From Hydrogenophaga sp. IBVHS2 (GTDB lineage: Bacteria; Pseudomonadota; Gammaproteobacteria; Burkholderiales; Burkholderiaceae_C), in NCBI RefSeq assembly GCF_002127215.1, contig NZ_NFUT01000002.1:62001-126000 (forward strand): a DNA stretch of 64,000 nucleotides, in the 5' to 3' direction. Positions 41,813 to 49,561 of the stretch are shown here, piece by piece. Under the pieces are notes generated by a model. It worked only from the letters and a program-made list of their open reading frames with translations. It was not told where the DNA came from and ran no database searches. How positions within the stretch are numbered: the first letter of the stretch is position 1; every line of letters starts with the position of its first letter. A program made the position numbers and the translations under genes.

Positions 41813-42238
41813 TCAGCGGTGGTTCGGGCCGTCGTCCGAACCCCGTGCGCGGCGGGAGGCACCGGCACTGTCGTCGGCGCCGCGGGTGCGTCCGCCATCG
41901 TCGGCGCCGCGATTGCGGCCGCCACCATCGGCCGTGCCGCCATCGTCACCTCCCCGGCCTCGGCCGCGGCCCTGGCCATGACCGCCTTCGCCGCCGTCGC
42001 CCGCGCCATCACCACCCCGACCATGCCCGTGGCCATGTCCATGGCCGCCAGACGAGGACGAGGAGGCACTGCCGCCCTTGCCGCCGCCCGAGCTGCTGCC
42101 AGACCCACCCGAGCCGCCCGAACCGCCACCGGACCCCCCGCCGGAGCCGCCGTTCTTGGCCAGTGCAATGCCCGACCCGAGGGACAGGACGAGTACGGTG
42201 ATGAGGGTTCCCAGCAGGGGGCGGCGCGACGTCTTCAT
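41813..42238 (-). CDS. Exported Ser/Gly-rich low-complexity protein with Gly-His repeat
   Basis: A 141-residue protein of unknown function. A signal peptide (MKTSRRPLLGTLITVLVLSLGSGIALA) is followed by a mature part made of Gly, Ser, Asp, Arg and His. It has (GGGS)n-like repeats, the tract SSSGGGKGG, a run GHGHGHGHGRGG and repeats GADDGGR. The His-Gly run could bind metal; the rest should be disordered. AAGGAG lies six bases before the ATG. It is divergent from the DUF6502 gene across a region with three palindromes, and its SSGGGKG tract recurs at the end of the DUF5666-type lipoprotein. Confidence 0.75.
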   Translation of the reverse strand: MKTSRRPLLGTLITVLVLSLGSGIALAKNGGSGGGSGGGSGGSGGSGSSSGGGKGGSASSSSSGGHGHGHGHGRGGDGAGDGGEGGHGQGRGRGRGGDDGGTADGGGRNRGADDGGRTRGADDSAGASRRARGSDDGPNHR

Positions 42239-42260
42239 GGAAGGCTCCTTGTGTTGATGT

Positions 42261-42277
42261 GTGGGAATATTTCCCAC
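42261..42277. promoter_or_regulatory. 17-bp palindromic operator candidate, site 1
   Basis: GTGGGAATATTTCCCAC: perfect GTGGGAA/TTCCCAC arms around three A/T bases. It lies just upstream of the ribosome site of the leftward exported-protein gene (start at 42238). Confidence 0.8.
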
Positions 42278-42290
42278 GAACCCAGTATCT

Positions 42291-42307
42291 GTGGGAAATA
42301 TTCCCAC
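42291..42307. promoter_or_regulatory. 17-bp palindromic operator candidate, site 2
   Basis: GTGGGAAATATTCCCAC, the exact reverse complement of site 1. Its start is 30 bases from the start of site 1, i.e. about three turns of the helix. Confidence 0.8.
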
Positions 42308-42319
42308 GTCAACGTTTTT

Positions 42320-42336
42320 GTGGGTTTTTTTCCCAC
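42320..42336. promoter_or_regulatory. 17-bp palindromic operator candidate, site 3
   Basis: GTGGG-TTTTTTT-CCCAC: the GTGGG/CCCAC arms are kept, but the centre is a T-run. It starts 29 bases after site 2 and ends 24 bases before the DUF6502 start, so it would affect rightward transcription. Confidence 0.7.
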
Positions 42337-42360
42337 GCTTGGCGTTACCATCGTGTCCAG

Positions 42361-43230
42361 ATGTCAGCCAGCCCCCGCCCCGACCCAGCGACCCCGCAGC
42401 CGCCCCAGGCACTGACGGCCGGGCTGCGCCGTCTGCTGCGCCCGCTGGTGCGGTTGATGGTGGCGCGTGGCATCACCTACCCGTATCTGGCCGATCTGCT
42501 CAAGGGCCTGTTCGTGGAGGTGGCCGACGCCGACTTCCGCATCGATGGCAAGCCCCCCACCGACAGCCGCGTGTCATTGCTCAGCGGCGTGCACCGCAAG
42601 GACGTCAGCCGCCTGCGCGCGCTGGACCCGTCGCGCACGCTGCCGGCACCGGTTCCGCTCACGGCGCAGGTGTTCGCCCGCTGGGTGGGTGATGCGGCCT
42701 GGCGCAACCGGCGCGGCCAGCCGCTGCCGCTGCCCCGGCTGGCCAGCGATGGCGGCGAGCGCTCGTTCGAGGCCCTGGTGGCCGGCATCAGCACCGACAT
42801 CCGCCCCCGTGTGCTGCTGGACGAGTGGCTGGACCGTGGGCTGGTGGTGCTGGACGACCAGGACCGGGTCTGCCTGCAGCCGCAGGCCCTGGTGCCGTCG
42901 GCCGACGAGCACGAAAAGCTGCACTACTTCATTCACCAGCTCCACGACCACGCGGCCGCCGCCACCCACAACCTGCTGGGGGGCGAGCCACATTTCGACC
43001 GCTGCGTGCATGCCGACGGCCTTACCGCTGCCGATGTGGCGGTGCTGCGCGACCTGGCCCGAGCCCAGGGCATGCAGGCGTTGCTGGTGCTCAACGACGA
43101 GGTGCAGCGGCTGCAGGCGGCGCACCGTCCCGACGACCCCGATCAACCGCCCGCGCAGGAGCGATTCACCCTGGGGGTCTATTTCTTCAGCGAGACGGTC
43201 GATGCCACGGCCGACGGAGCGCCACGATGA
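42361..43230 (+). CDS. DUF6502-family protein, possible DNA-binding regulator
   Basis: A 289-residue soluble protein of the DUF6502 type, function not established. The N-terminal third (LRRLLRPLVRLMVARGITYPYLADLLKGLFVEVA, then GVHRKDVSRLRAL) reads like a winged-helix DNA-binding domain. The remainder is helical with a DEHEKLHYFIHQLHDH segment. The ATG at 42361 (MSASPRPDP) is chosen; the frame upstream would read through the palindromes. No clear ribosome site. Its stop overlaps the next start (ATGA). Its place beside three palindromes suggests it binds them and controls both neighbours. Confidence 0.75.
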   Translation: MSASPRPDPATPQPPQALTAGLRRLLRPLVRLMVARGITYPYLADLLKGLFVEVADADFRIDGKPPTDSRVSLLSGVHRKDVSRLRALDPSRTLPAPVPLTAQVFARWVGDAAWRNRRGQPLPLPRLASDGGERSFEALVAGISTDIRPRVLLDEWLDRGLVVLDDQDRVCLQPQALVPSADEHEKLHYFIHQLHDHAAAATHNLLGGEPHFDRCVHADGLTAADVAVLRDLARAQGMQALLVLNDEVQRLQAAHRPDDPDQPPAQERFTLGVYFFSETVDATADGAPR

Positions 43231-44486
43231 CCGGCCAACGACTTGTCCTTCTCCTGTCCATGGTGGCCCTGTCCGGCTGCGCCGCCCTGGATGCACCGTG
43301 GCTGCGACCAGGCACCGACCCTGCCGCCCCGCGTCCCGCTCCGGCCTGCTTGGCCCCGTCGCAGACCAACCCGGCCCTGGCATCACCCGGCGGCATGGGC
43401 GGTACCGGCGCGGTGGCGGCGGTACCGCCCGGTGGCGGGGACGGCATCGGTGGCACCGGGCGCACGGCAGACGCCGGACCGCCGGGGCTGGGCGGCACCG
43501 GCATCGTGGGCGTGGTGACCGGTTTCGCCAGCGTCTGTGTCAACGGGGTGGAGGTGGAGCTGCAGCCCGATACCCAGCTGCGCCGGGACGGCGTGTCGGT
43601 GGGGCCGCGCGAGCTGGCGGTGGGTCAGCTGGTGGCGATTGCCGCCACCGGTGTCGGCCGCGAAGTGACCGCCTGGCGCATCGAGGTGATCGACACCCTG
43701 GTCGCGCCGGTCGAGACGGTGGACGTTGCGCGGCGGGAGCTCACCGCGCTGGGGCAGCGGGTGGTGCTGCTCAATCCGTCCGACGCTGCCGGGCTGCAGC
43801 GCGGCGACTGGGTGCGCATCAGCGGGCATCGGGGTGCGGCCGACGAGATCCGGGCGTCCGCGCTGGTCCGTGGGGCGGGCATCGAGCCGCGCGCCCGGTT
43901 GCTGGGGCGCGTGGCACGCGATGCCCAGGGGCAGTTGCAAGTGGCCGGCACCCGGGTGGAGGTGCCCCCCGGGCTGGCGCAGGCCCGGCCGGGGGACGAG
44001 GTGCTGGTGGTCGGGCTCTGGGACGGACAACAGCTCACCGCCAGCCGCGTCGATGTGCAGCCGATCCGCCGTGCCATCGGGGAGGCCACGAACCAGGCCG
44101 TGCTGCAGGGCTATGTGCAGTCCCGCCAGGGGCAGGTGGTGCAGCTCGGCTACGAGCAGGTGGAGCTGCAGACCACGACCCGGGTGTTCGGTGGTTCGCT
44201 GGACGCGCTGCAGACCGGTCGACCGGTGCAGGTGAAGGTCCGGCGCGGCGAGGATGGCCGCTGGCGGGTGGACGAGCTCTACCTGGGCCGCGAGGGCGGC
44301 CGCGGTGCGCGCAGCAGCGGCGAGCGGGGCGACGACGGCGGTGGCCGGCGTGGCCGCGGCAGCGATGGCGGTGGCGATGACGGCGGCAGCTCGGGCAGCT
44401 CGGGCGGGGAGAGCGGCAGTTCGGGATCGTCCGGGTCGTCGGGCTCGTCCGGCGGGGGCAAGGGCCGGGGGCGCGGCGGCAAGTGA
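43227..44486 (+). CDS. DUF5666-type lipoprotein with Ser/Gly/Arg-rich tail
   Basis: A 419-residue predicted lipoprotein. The signal ends in the lipobox ALSGC (Cys 17). A Gly/Pro-rich stretch with GGTG repeats follows, then several DUF5666-like small beta domains between about residues 90 and 350. Their repeating strands include VVGVVTGF-like, RISGHRGAADEIRAS and LGRVARDAQGQLQVAGTRVEV. The last 65 residues are low complexity (GDDGG, SSGSSGG, GGGKGRGRGGK). It is translationally coupled to the DUF6502 gene. A surface or periplasmic structural role is likely; no enzyme motif is seen. Confidence 0.75.
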   Translation: MTGQRLVLLLSMVALSGCAALDAPWLRPGTDPAAPRPAPACLAPSQTNPALASPGGMGGTGAVAAVPPGGGDGIGGTGRTADAGPPGLGGTGIVGVVTGFASVCVNGVEVELQPDTQLRRDGVSVGPRELAVGQLVAIAATGVGREVTAWRIEVIDTLVAPVETVDVARRELTALGQRVVLLNPSDAAGLQRGDWVRISGHRGAADEIRASALVRGAGIEPRARLLGRVARDAQGQLQVAGTRVEVPPGLAQARPGDEVLVVGLWDGQQLTASRVDVQPIRRAIGEATNQAVLQGYVQSRQGQVVQLGYEQVELQTTTRVFGGSLDALQTGRPVQVKVRRGEDGRWRVDELYLGREGGRGARSSGERGDDGGGRRGRGSDGGGDDGGSSGSSGGESGSSGSSGSSGSSGGGKGRGRGGK

Positions 44487-45597: not shown

Positions 45598-46527
45598 TCA
45601 GGCCTTGAGCAGCGGCGTGTCGTGTTCCACCAGCAGGGCTTCGCCGCGCTCGATCACGAAGTAGCGGAAGGCTTCCGCAGCCGGTGACAGCACCTTGCTC
45701 TGCAGGTGCACCACATGCCAGGTGCGCATGACCGGCGTGCCTTCCACGTCCACCCGCTGCAGCAGGCCCAGCCGCAGCTCCAGGCCCACGGTGTGCAGCG
45801 ACAGGAAGCTGATGCCCATGTCCGCCATGACCGCCTGCTTGAGGGCTTCGTTGCTGCTCATCTCCATGGTGATCTGCGGCTCGAAGCGCTGTTCGGCGAA
45901 AAAGCTCTCCATCGCGCTGCGCGTGCCCGAACCCTGTTCCCGCACGATGAAGGGGTAACCCGCCAGCGCCTTGAGCGGTGGATGGCCGATGCGCATGAGC
46001 GGATGGCCCGGGGGCGCCACGAACACCAGCGGGTGGGCGGCGAACGCCTCGCTGCGGGTGGAGAGCTCCGGCGGCGGTCGGCCCATGATCGAGAGGTCGA
46101 CCTCGCCGGCCTCCATCTGCGCCATCAGCGCCTCGCGGTTGTTGGCCACCGTCAGCCGCACCTCGATGCCCGGGTGCTCCTCGCGGAACAGGGCCAGCAG
46201 GCGGGGCACGAAGTACTTGGCGGTGCTCACCATGCCCACGGTGAGCAGGCCATGTTCGAGCTTCTTGAACCGCGCCATGGCGTTCTCGGCGTCGCGCAGG
46301 GCGCCCAGCATGCGCTTGGCATGCACCACGAAGTATTCGCCGGCGGTCGACAGCGTCAGGGTGCGGCCGTGGCGGTCGAACAGCTGCAGGCCGACCTGGT
46401 TCTCCAGCTCCTTGATCTGCATCGACACGGCCGGCGGCGTGAGGTGCAGGGCGTTGGCCGCCGCCGTGATGCCACCGCGCTGGGCCACTTCCAGGAAGAC
46501 CCGCAACTGCCTGAAGCTCAGGTTCAT
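45598..46527 (-). CDS. cbbR: LysR-type regulator of the Calvin cycle operon
   Basis: A 309-residue LysR-family regulator, divergent from cbbL, the standard position for CbbR. The winged helix (residues 1-60) is MNLSFRQLRVFLEVAQRGGITAAANALHLTPPAVSMQIKELE. The effector domain (about 90-295) resembles CbbR, with GMVSTAKYFVPRLLALF and REQGSGTRSAMESFF. CbbR usually activates cbb operons and senses metabolites such as phosphoenolpyruvate or NADPH. The start has an AGGAAAGG ribosome site. Confidence 0.93.
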   Translation of the reverse strand: MNLSFRQLRVFLEVAQRGGITAAANALHLTPPAVSMQIKELENQVGLQLFDRHGRTLTLSTAGEYFVVHAKRMLGALRDAENAMARFKKLEHGLLTVGMVSTAKYFVPRLLALFREEHPGIEVRLTVANNREALMAQMEAGEVDLSIMGRPPPELSTRSEAFAAHPLVFVAPPGHPLMRIGHPPLKALAGYPFIVREQGSGTRSAMESFFAEQRFEPQITMEMSSNEALKQAVMADMGISFLSLHTVGLELRLGLLQRVDVEGTPVMRTWHVVHLQSKVLSPAAEAFRYFVIERGEALLVEHDTPLLKA

Positions 46528-48130
<1,603 letters not shown>

Positions 48131-48156
48131 TCCACCGCACCACCGGAGCCAACGCC

Positions 48157-48591
48157 ATGATGACCAACCCCACCGGCCGCGTGACCCAGGGCCAGTTCAG
48201 CTTCCTGCCCGACCTCAGCGACGACGAGATCCGTGCCCAGATCGACTACGGCCTGGCCCGTGGCTACGCCTGGAGCGTGGAATACACCGACGACCCGCAC
48301 CCGCGCAACACCTACTGGGAGATGTTCGGCATGCCGATGTTCGACCTGACGGATGCGGCCGGCGTCATGCTGGAGCTGGCGAGCTGCCGCCAGACCTTTC
48401 CGCAGCACTACATCCGCCTCATGGCCTTCGACAGCACGCGCGGCATCGAGAGCATCGCCATGAGCTTCATGGTCAACCGGCCGACCACCGAGCCCGGCTT
48501 CGGTCTGGTGCGCCAGGAAGCCGACGGTCGCCAGATCCGCTACACCATCCACAGCTACGCCACGGACCGACCCGAGGCCCAACGCTACTGA
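48157..48591 (+). CDS. cbbS: RuBisCO form I (red-type) small subunit
   Basis: A 144-residue small subunit with the conserved [31 protein letters not shown] and the extended C-terminal beta-hairpin typical of red-type RuBisCO ([23 protein letters not shown]). This hairpin lines the central pore of the hexadecamer and helps assembly. It lies 26 bases after cbbL. Two ATG codons occur in a row (48157 and 48160). Confidence 0.97.
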
Positions 48592-48598
48592 GGCCGGC

Positions 48599-49561
48599 AT
48601 GAACATGCTCTACGCCATTCCGGGGTCGGAGACCCGTGCCGCCGAGGGGGCTGCGCCCGCCGCCGTGGCCGTGCCCCGCAGTGCGCCCCGCACCGTCGGC
48701 GAGGTGCTGGCCCACAGCCAGGTCGAGCCGGTGCTGGCCGAGCTCGATGCCGACCTGGTGGGGCTGCAACCGGTCAAGCAGCGCATCCGCGACATCGCCG
48801 CGCTGCTGGTGATCGACTGGCTGCGCATGGGTCACGGGCTGCAGGCGCAGACCCCGTCGCTGCACATGTGCTTCACCGGCAACCCCGGCACCGGCAAGAC
48901 CACCGTGGCCCTGCGCATGGCGACCATCCTGCACCGGCTGGGCTATGTGCGCAAAGGCCATCTGGTGGCGGTCACGCGCGACGATCTGGTGGGCCAGTAC
49001 ATCGGCCACACCGCACCCAAGACGCGCGAGGTGCTCAAGAAGGCCATGGGCGGCGTGCTGTTCATCGACGAGGCCTACTACCTCTACAAGCCCGAAAACG
49101 AGCGCGACTATGGGGGCGAAGCCATCGAGATCCTGCTGCAGGTCATGGAGAACCAGCGCGACGACCTGGTCGTCATCCTGGCCGGCTACAAGGACCGCAT
49201 GGACACCTTCTTCCAGAGCAATCCCGGCATGAGCAGCCGGGTGGCCCACCACCTCGACTTCCCCGACTACGCGCACGACGAGCTGCTGGCCATTGGCGAC
49301 CGCATGCTGGGTGCCATGAACTACCGCCTGGCCCCGGGCGCCCGCGAGGTGTTTGCCGAGTACCTGCAGCGCCGCCAGGGCCAGCCGCACTTTGCCAATG
49401 CCCGCAGCGTGCGCAATGCGCTGGACCGCATCCGCCTGCGCCAGGCCAGCCGCCTGTTTGCCGACCGCGACCGGCCTCTCTCCGAGGACGATCTGGTCAC
49501 GCTGCAGCCCGAAGACATCCGCGCCAGCCGGGTGTTCACCCTGCCGGTTGCCTCCCCCTGA
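48599..49561 (+). CDS. cbbX: Red-type RuBisCO activase
   Basis: A 320-residue AAA+ protein that remodels inhibited red-type RuBisCO by pulling on the large-subunit C-terminus. Walker [10 protein letters not shown] is near residue 95, with Walker [11 protein letters not shown] near 155 and sensor/arginine-finger region [18 protein letters not shown]. The N-terminal 35 residues are a variable Ala/Pro-rich extension. The start at 48599 or the ATG six bases later are both possible. It is seven bases after cbbS. Confidence 0.96.

Follow-up and report, generated by a model that had tools for sequence, protein, structure and literature searches.

In the genome of Hydrogenophaga sp. IBVHS2, three palindromes lie between a divergent minus-strand gene and a plus-strand gene encoding a protein of the DUF6502 family (Table 1). 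The locus raises the question of which protein recognizes these sites and which genes that protein would control. The stretch studied, here termed the window, is the whole 64-kb length of DNA analysed from contig NZ_NFUT01000002.1. The letters, starts and arm lengths given to the three sites by the first-pass annotation are all exact on re-reading of the sequence, and its spacings of 30 and 29 bp are correct. Site 2 is the exact reverse complement of site 1.

Table 1. Features of the DUF6502 locus, in positions of the window
Feature	Position	Strand	Description
Divergent gene	41813..42238	-	141-aa small protein; signal-peptide-like start, Gly/Ser/Asp-rich body
Site 1	42261..42277		GTGGGAATATTTCCCAC; 7-base arms, 3-base centre
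-10 hexamer GATACT, divergent promoter	42284..42289	-	promoter consensus scan; 17-bp spacer
Site 2	42291..42307		GTGGGAAATATTCCCAC; 7-base arms, 3-base centre; fills divergent promoter spacer
-35 hexamer TTGACG, divergent promoter	42307..42312	-	promoter consensus scan
Site 3	42320..42336		GTGGGTTTTTTTCCCAC; 5-base arms, T7 centre; DUF6502-proximal
Putative -10-like TACCAT, DUF6502 promoter	42346..42351	+	9 bases after site 3; gap conserved
DUF6502 gene	42361..43230	+	289 aa; Pfam PF20112, E 6.4e-30
Predicted helix-turn-helix	42562..42618	+	DUF6502 codons 68-86; model, VIA, alignments
DUF5666 gene	43227..44486	+	Pfam PF18914, E 1.5e-11; lipoprotein-like N-terminus

Promoters and genes of the locus

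The sigma-70-like TTGACG-N17-GATACT (minus strand, 42312 to 42284) is the sole promoter found in 42150-42500, where shuffles give an expectation of 0.1. Site 2 occupies its 17-bp spacer, the kind of promoter overlap that marks a local autoregulatory operator, and the edge of site 1 coincides with the predicted transcription start of the divergent gene, as placed from the -10 hexamer. No clear -35 is visible for the DUF6502 promoter, the consensus scan having found the divergent promoter only. With the putative TACCAT box so near the DUF6502 ATG, the DUF6502 transcript would have little or no leader, a layout that recurs in several close relatives (loci L029, L032, L033, L038 and L039).

Arrays were surveyed across 99 loci, 82 of them with sites, after loci that share their first 300 coding bases had been merged. 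A TAnnnT box is found 5-10 bases past the DUF6502-proximal site with a count of 72 over the 82 loci (summed over gaps, such that one locus could count twice), compared to 0-6 at each of the other gaps within 0-39 bases. The minus-strand -35, read as GTCAA, directly abuts the middle site in 25 of the 31 three-site arrays; across 165 sites it occurs 32 times in the scanned offsets, all at one offset. This divergent -35 is noted in 1 of 30 single-site loci versus 26 sites in the 31 three-site arrays. With the -35 tied to three-site arrays and a box placed after the proximal site, the array thus reflects two promoters to control and not a helical repeat. The conserved feature is the position of the sites relative to the two promoters.

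The first-pass annotation had placed all three sites on one face of the DNA and envisaged a cooperative array that forms a loop or filament. An architectural role of this type would suit the three near-equally spaced sites found here and in close relatives. At 10.5 bp per turn, however, the helical offset is -51 degrees for 30 bp and -86 degrees for 29 bp, and the 59 bp from site 1 to site 3 make 5.62 turns. The spacing pairs of the 31 three-site arrays are also spread (34/29 in 7, 30/29 in 4, 32/28 in 3, 34/30 in 3, and others). On this turn arithmetic and spread of spacings, phasing on one face is rejected. Cooperativity, looping or filament formation finds no support here; 30 of the 82 loci with sites have just one, and a phased architectural array is considered improbable.

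The DUF6502 protein is a member of PF20112 (104.3 bits against a gathering score of 27, spanning profile positions 2-264 of 268), and the stop codon of its gene overlaps the DUF5666 start as ATGA. An NTGA overlap of the DUF6502 stop with a start codon, whatever the family of the downstream gene, is found in 55 of 80 orthologous loci (the best 80 of 193). A raw search of the Hydrogenophaga genome for DUF5666 returned one match, the gene of the locus, below the cut-off of that search. The small divergent protein matched no Pfam family, and PADLOC profiles for anti-phage defence gave no match at E 0.1 to the DUF6502 or DUF5666 protein. In some Nitrosomonas loci, the gene divergent to DUF6502 encodes an envelope or redox-type protein, namely a multihaem cytochrome c in L092 and a beta-propeller protein in L079; in another locus (L132) a Phenol_MetA_deg-type protein (PF13557) is encoded just downstream of DUF6502. 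The neighbours (DUF5666, the small exported protein, cytochrome c and the beta-propeller protein) suggest a putative role at the cell envelope or in electron transfer. Elsewhere in the window (45598-49561), open reading frame translations were read as a LysR-type regulator, the large and small subunits of RuBisCO and a CbbX-like ATPase, a gene set that suggests an autotroph.

Distribution of the motif

In the 64-kb window, exact GTGGG-N7-CCCAC is found at sites 1-3 only. Genome-wide, it is found at 11 places in 3.17 Mb, 3 of them at the locus; the remaining 8 have no AT centre, their centres being mixed or GC-rich. The longer GTGGGAAN3TTCCCAC, which the first-pass annotation proposed as the pattern for a genome scan, is exact in this genome at sites 1 and 2 only; two mismatches add site 3 and one other place only, and at three or fewer mismatches the total of 55 falls below the reversed-pattern control (118). 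The scan thus reveals no genome-wide scatter, the AT-centred motif being local to the DUF6502 locus. As the exact AT-centred motif is restricted in this manner, the scatter test does not refute an operator reading. No regulon beyond the locus was detected by whole-genome motif scans of the organism.

Palindromes can in principle form hairpins, and GTGGG-N7-CCCAC with two or fewer mismatches is not enriched in the window (68 matches versus 97 in shuffles), as might be said in favour of chance, a compositional artefact or RNA hairpins as the origin of the sites. Such an origin is scarcely credible in view of the shuffle and window controls and the conservation in many genera described below, and no terminator is called at the sites. 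The three palindromes are not chance.

Among 100 relatives (a set that overlaps with the 80-locus and 299-genome sets below, several genomes being in more than one), DUF6502 was detected in 22. The strict motif is present in 5 of the 100, with 6 distinct sites, every one directly upstream of DUF6502, and is absent from all 78 of the 78 relatives without DUF6502. The DUF6502 family is found in 118 of 299 genomes of the window's own family and in 21 of 398 genomes drawn from the phylum. Across the 299 family genomes, a relaxed pattern matched 13 distinct sites in 10 genomes, and 10 of these sites (7 genomes) are directly upstream of DUF6502.

Scanning named genomes with alignment A2 yielded 193 relatives, and the 80 best orthologous loci were retained. 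Hosts include Hydrogenophaga, Polaromonas, Rhodoferax, Aromatoleum, Nitrosomonas and Pseudomonas. The first-pass annotation had called for a check upstream of DUF6502 orthologues, and here the motif is present: a site (11 of 14 or better, a rule chosen after the sites were inspected) lies within 260 bp upstream in 72 of the 80 loci, with two or more sites in 47 and three or more in 28. In the controls, a site was found in 34 of 2,442 windows taken from these loci and in 32 of 4,000 shuffles of the upstream regions (single-base shuffles in which dinucleotides are not kept, as also used for the 177-locus and 40-locus sets below). Start codons were set by rule and in one locus (L073) the site overlaps the assigned start, while three loci (L101, L104 and L105) have near-sites with altered spacing; thus, some of the 8 misses are false.

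With a clade-specific pattern, 11 of 13 Pseudomonas genomes have one exact site per genome, all at -55 of DUF6502. A further 23 genomes were chosen, 20 of which have a match; they contain 42 distinct sites, 36 at the DUF6502 promoter and 6 elsewhere. Both sets were picked for DUF6502 with patterns tuned on DUF6502, and they test only the other occurrences of the pattern. The sites are confined to the DUF6502 locus in the Hydrogenophaga genome, the 100 relatives and Pseudomonas, and exceptions exist in other genomes. A plasmid search gave 74 records with a DUF6502 relative, at less than 60 percent identity, including 66 of Rhizobium.

The sites away from the DUF6502 promoter have varied contexts. 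In the 299-genome set, one is inside a penicillin-binding-protein-like reading frame (G357) and one is near the start of a Rieske-like reading frame (G161), both as read here from the translations. These two were rejected as operators and taken as chance, because the reversed control pattern also matched one genome. A site in G263 (contig 6), about 2.35 kb beyond where the DUF6502 match ends, precedes a predicted exported protein of 263 aa without a Pfam family (L146 621-1409). Of the six off-promoter sites in the chosen genomes, one is before a small same-strand gene just upstream of DUF6502 (G797), two are in an apparent second copy of the operator region near the locus (G806) and one is without an assigned context (G804). 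In Nitrosomonas oligotropha (the genome of locus L135), a site on contig 3 of G807 (L294 2001-2472) is before an exported protein of 131 aa without a Pfam family, which is a candidate second target. Similarly, an exact site on contig 2 of G796 (L293 628-3051), in the Gallionellaceae genome of locus L074, is flanked by the genes of a ferredoxin/FAD oxidoreductase and a 295-aa membrane protein, a region that is a candidate electron-transfer target. Some off-promoter sites of the chosen genomes may be true regulon members.

Operator classes and the DUF6502 protein

Operator classes, chosen after the sites were inspected, were compared with the predicted recognition helix in a discovery set of 187 loci (177 after merging identical protein stretches). 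The His class (137 of 177 loci) has KTGKG..CCCAY in 96, TTGGG in 2 and TGTGC in 3. The [TS]RK[DE] class (18 of 177) has TTGGG..CCCAA in 16 and KTGKG in 1, while the RRE class (18 of 177) has TGTGC..GCACA in 10, KTGKG in 6 and TTGGG in 1. Shuffled rates for the 177-locus set are 3.2, 1.3 and 0.4 percent for KTGKG, TTGGG and TGTGC, respectively. Under a fixed scan, no class is matched in 50 of the 177 discovery loci, 2 of 18 loci of a phylum-wide held-out set and 21 of 40 loci of a family held-out set.

The class prediction was written before the two held-out sets were examined. Of the 18 new phylum-wide loci, 16 have a site and 16 of these 16 are in the expected class; the set includes two loci of one genus (L230 and L231), two from the window's own family (L243 and L244) and a near-identical pair with QRRD, which the written prediction does not strictly cover (L245 and L246). 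The phylum draw gave 24 loci: the 18 examined, 5 already in the discovery set, and a sixth (L250) that is the same place as L329 of the 40-locus set, where the class was wrong. The family held-out set comprises 40 more diverged loci from the 299 family genomes that also fed class discovery, and has 18 loci with a single best class (16 as predicted, 2 not) and 1 tied. In total, 32 of 34 classifiable held-out loci are in the expected class, or 30 of 32 without L245 and L246.

A tree was built from the part of the protein that follows the recognition helix; of 115 loci, 84 are classifiable, and all 84 agree. Operator class changes about 3 times on the tree, with one independent pair on supported branches; thus, descent is inseparable from residue-by-residue recognition, and the tree-based test of class association has low power. 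Operator class follows DUF6502 clade and the predicted recognition helix. DUF6502 proteins with GLRRPEV helices are encoded at three loci (L186, L189 and L316). Upstream of L186 and L189 is another palindrome, AAATGTATTATTCGTACATTT, which is perhaps a fourth operator class, while L316 has no match to any of the three operator classes.

A structure model of the DUF6502 protein (m3b0e9c6c6b9c), built from an 81-row alignment, has a mean pLDDT of 75 and a pTM of 0.49, with a weak C-terminal part. Helices 68-75 and 79-86 are modelled at a pLDDT of about 83-91, with residues 79-86 (motif GVHRKDV) as the predicted recognition helix, and a helix-helix-hairpin is found later at 136-172. By VIA, residues 40-94 match sigma-factor, TrpR and DeoR helix-turn-helix domains (Z 5.5-6.3) and residues 96-179 match winged helices including IclR, IdeR and MCM8 (Z 5.5-7.5). 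A Z of 5.5-7.5 is in the range of common arrangements, and these moderate matches fit a DNA-binding protein without proving one. The likeness to the helix-turn-helix (sigma-factor, TrpR, DeoR) and winged-helix (IclR, IdeR) domains is in a small fold (rmsd mostly 2.5-4.3), whereas identity to DUF6502 is 6-16 percent. The order of helix-turn-helix, winged helix and helical domain has no whole-chain match of credible rmsd among the 50 VIA matches listed. Foldseek with the model gave no match at E 0.001 or below, and a sequence search of solved structures gave only a ribosomal match (E 0.59). At E 0.01, the protein matches PF20112 only in Pfam and nothing in NCBIfam, with no profile match to the TrpR, DeoR, IclR, IdeR or MarR families. 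HetR was rejected as a structural relative (rmsd 9.6-11.3), and a single-sequence model of the protein was unusable (pLDDT 36). Residues 195-204 in the C-terminal helical domain (42943-42972) form a His/Asn-containing motif, HDHAAAATHN, which is strongly conserved in alignment A3 but varies in distant DUF6502 members; this motif could be a sensing site.

The link between protein class and site class, a correlation of sequences, offers stronger ground for DUF6502 as the probable binder than the fold scores. A regulator encoded elsewhere could instead bind the palindromes, with DUF6502 merely a target. Binding by DUF6502 is itself deduced, the class association has few independent switches and some sites are away from DUF6502 (3 of the 13 distinct sites family-wide and 6 of the 42 in the chosen genomes), all of which would suit such a regulator. 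The motif is, however, mostly at DUF6502 in Beta- and Gammaproteobacteria as well as in one other class of the phylum, the strict motif is missing from the relatives without DUF6502, and operator class tracks the DUF6502 helix class. A regulator from elsewhere is accordingly given very little credence.

Proposed regulation and its meaning

The DUF6502 protein is quite probably the binder of the three palindromes and a regulator of the helix-turn-helix type that most likely represses its own gene, DUF5666 and the divergent gene. An operator array in the divergent promoter, local to DUF6502 genes, had been put forward in the first-pass annotation and is supported by the motif distribution and promoter geometry. 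Its choice of the adjacent DUF6502 protein as likely binder agrees with the orthologue, locus-restriction and class data, from which binding is inferred.

The protein is predicted to have an N-terminal helix-turn-helix (~40-94), a winged-helix-like domain (~96-179) and, at the C-terminus, a helical domain with a possible role in signal sensing, and probably occupies each palindrome in dimeric form. The divergent promoter would be blocked, and the small exported protein turned off, by protein on its spacer (site 2) and on its transcription start (site 1). Protein on site 3 would mask the -35 region of the DUF6502 promoter and turn off DUF6502-DUF5666. A signal would presumably release the protein from the operators. 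The simplest reading is repression by occlusion. Activation retains some probability because the DUF6502 promoter, with its -10-like box at a conserved distance, shows no good -35; the protein may bind the sites but activate its own promoter, while repressing or also activating the divergent one. Activation is nevertheless rather unlikely, as the proximal site is 5-10 bases from the -10-like box, over the -35 place, and activators outside the MerR type rarely sit there.

Palindromic operators and a divergent target are well known from local autoregulators such as the TetR-, TrpR- and MarR-type repressors. As a proposed repressor, DUF6502 is like these in having operators within the divergent intergenic region and few or no other sites in the genome, with one site in the spacer of the target promoter and one before the regulator's own -10-like box. 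By contrast, DUF6502 has no match to these families (Pfam and NCBIfam, E 0.01) and no solved-structure relative by sequence.

The family entry for DUF6502 (PF20112) assigns it no function, and both the DNA-binding role and the cognate operators are proposals of this analysis. No paper naming DUF6502, PF20112 or IPR045445 was found in 5.39 million open-licence full texts, a collection with few subscription papers and with preprints outside it. Within the reach of this open-licence literature, the assignment of DUF6502 to the local autoregulators appears new. DUF5666 is listed in gene tables of PMC10714799 and PMC12455991 and is named in PMC13255231 and PMC12894976 as well.

DUF6502 is probably an unrecognised Proteobacteria family of self-regulating DNA-binding proteins with their own palindromic operators, a readable code, and a module of DUF5666 and surface exported or electron-transfer proteins. 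As part of this joint reading, the proposed code would pair (i) G-[VLI]-His-Arg-[KR]-[DE] with [GA]TG[GT]G..CCCA[CT], (ii) [TS]-Arg-Lys-[DE] with TTGGG..CCCAA, and (iii) x-Arg-Arg-Glu with TGTGC..GCACA. A domain of unknown function would thereby become a predicted transcription factor for which binding site, promoters and targets are all proposed, and this would also open a first way into the roles of the DUF5666 protein and the small exported protein beside it. The clade-specific operators would form a natural set for study of the joint change of recognition helices and operators.
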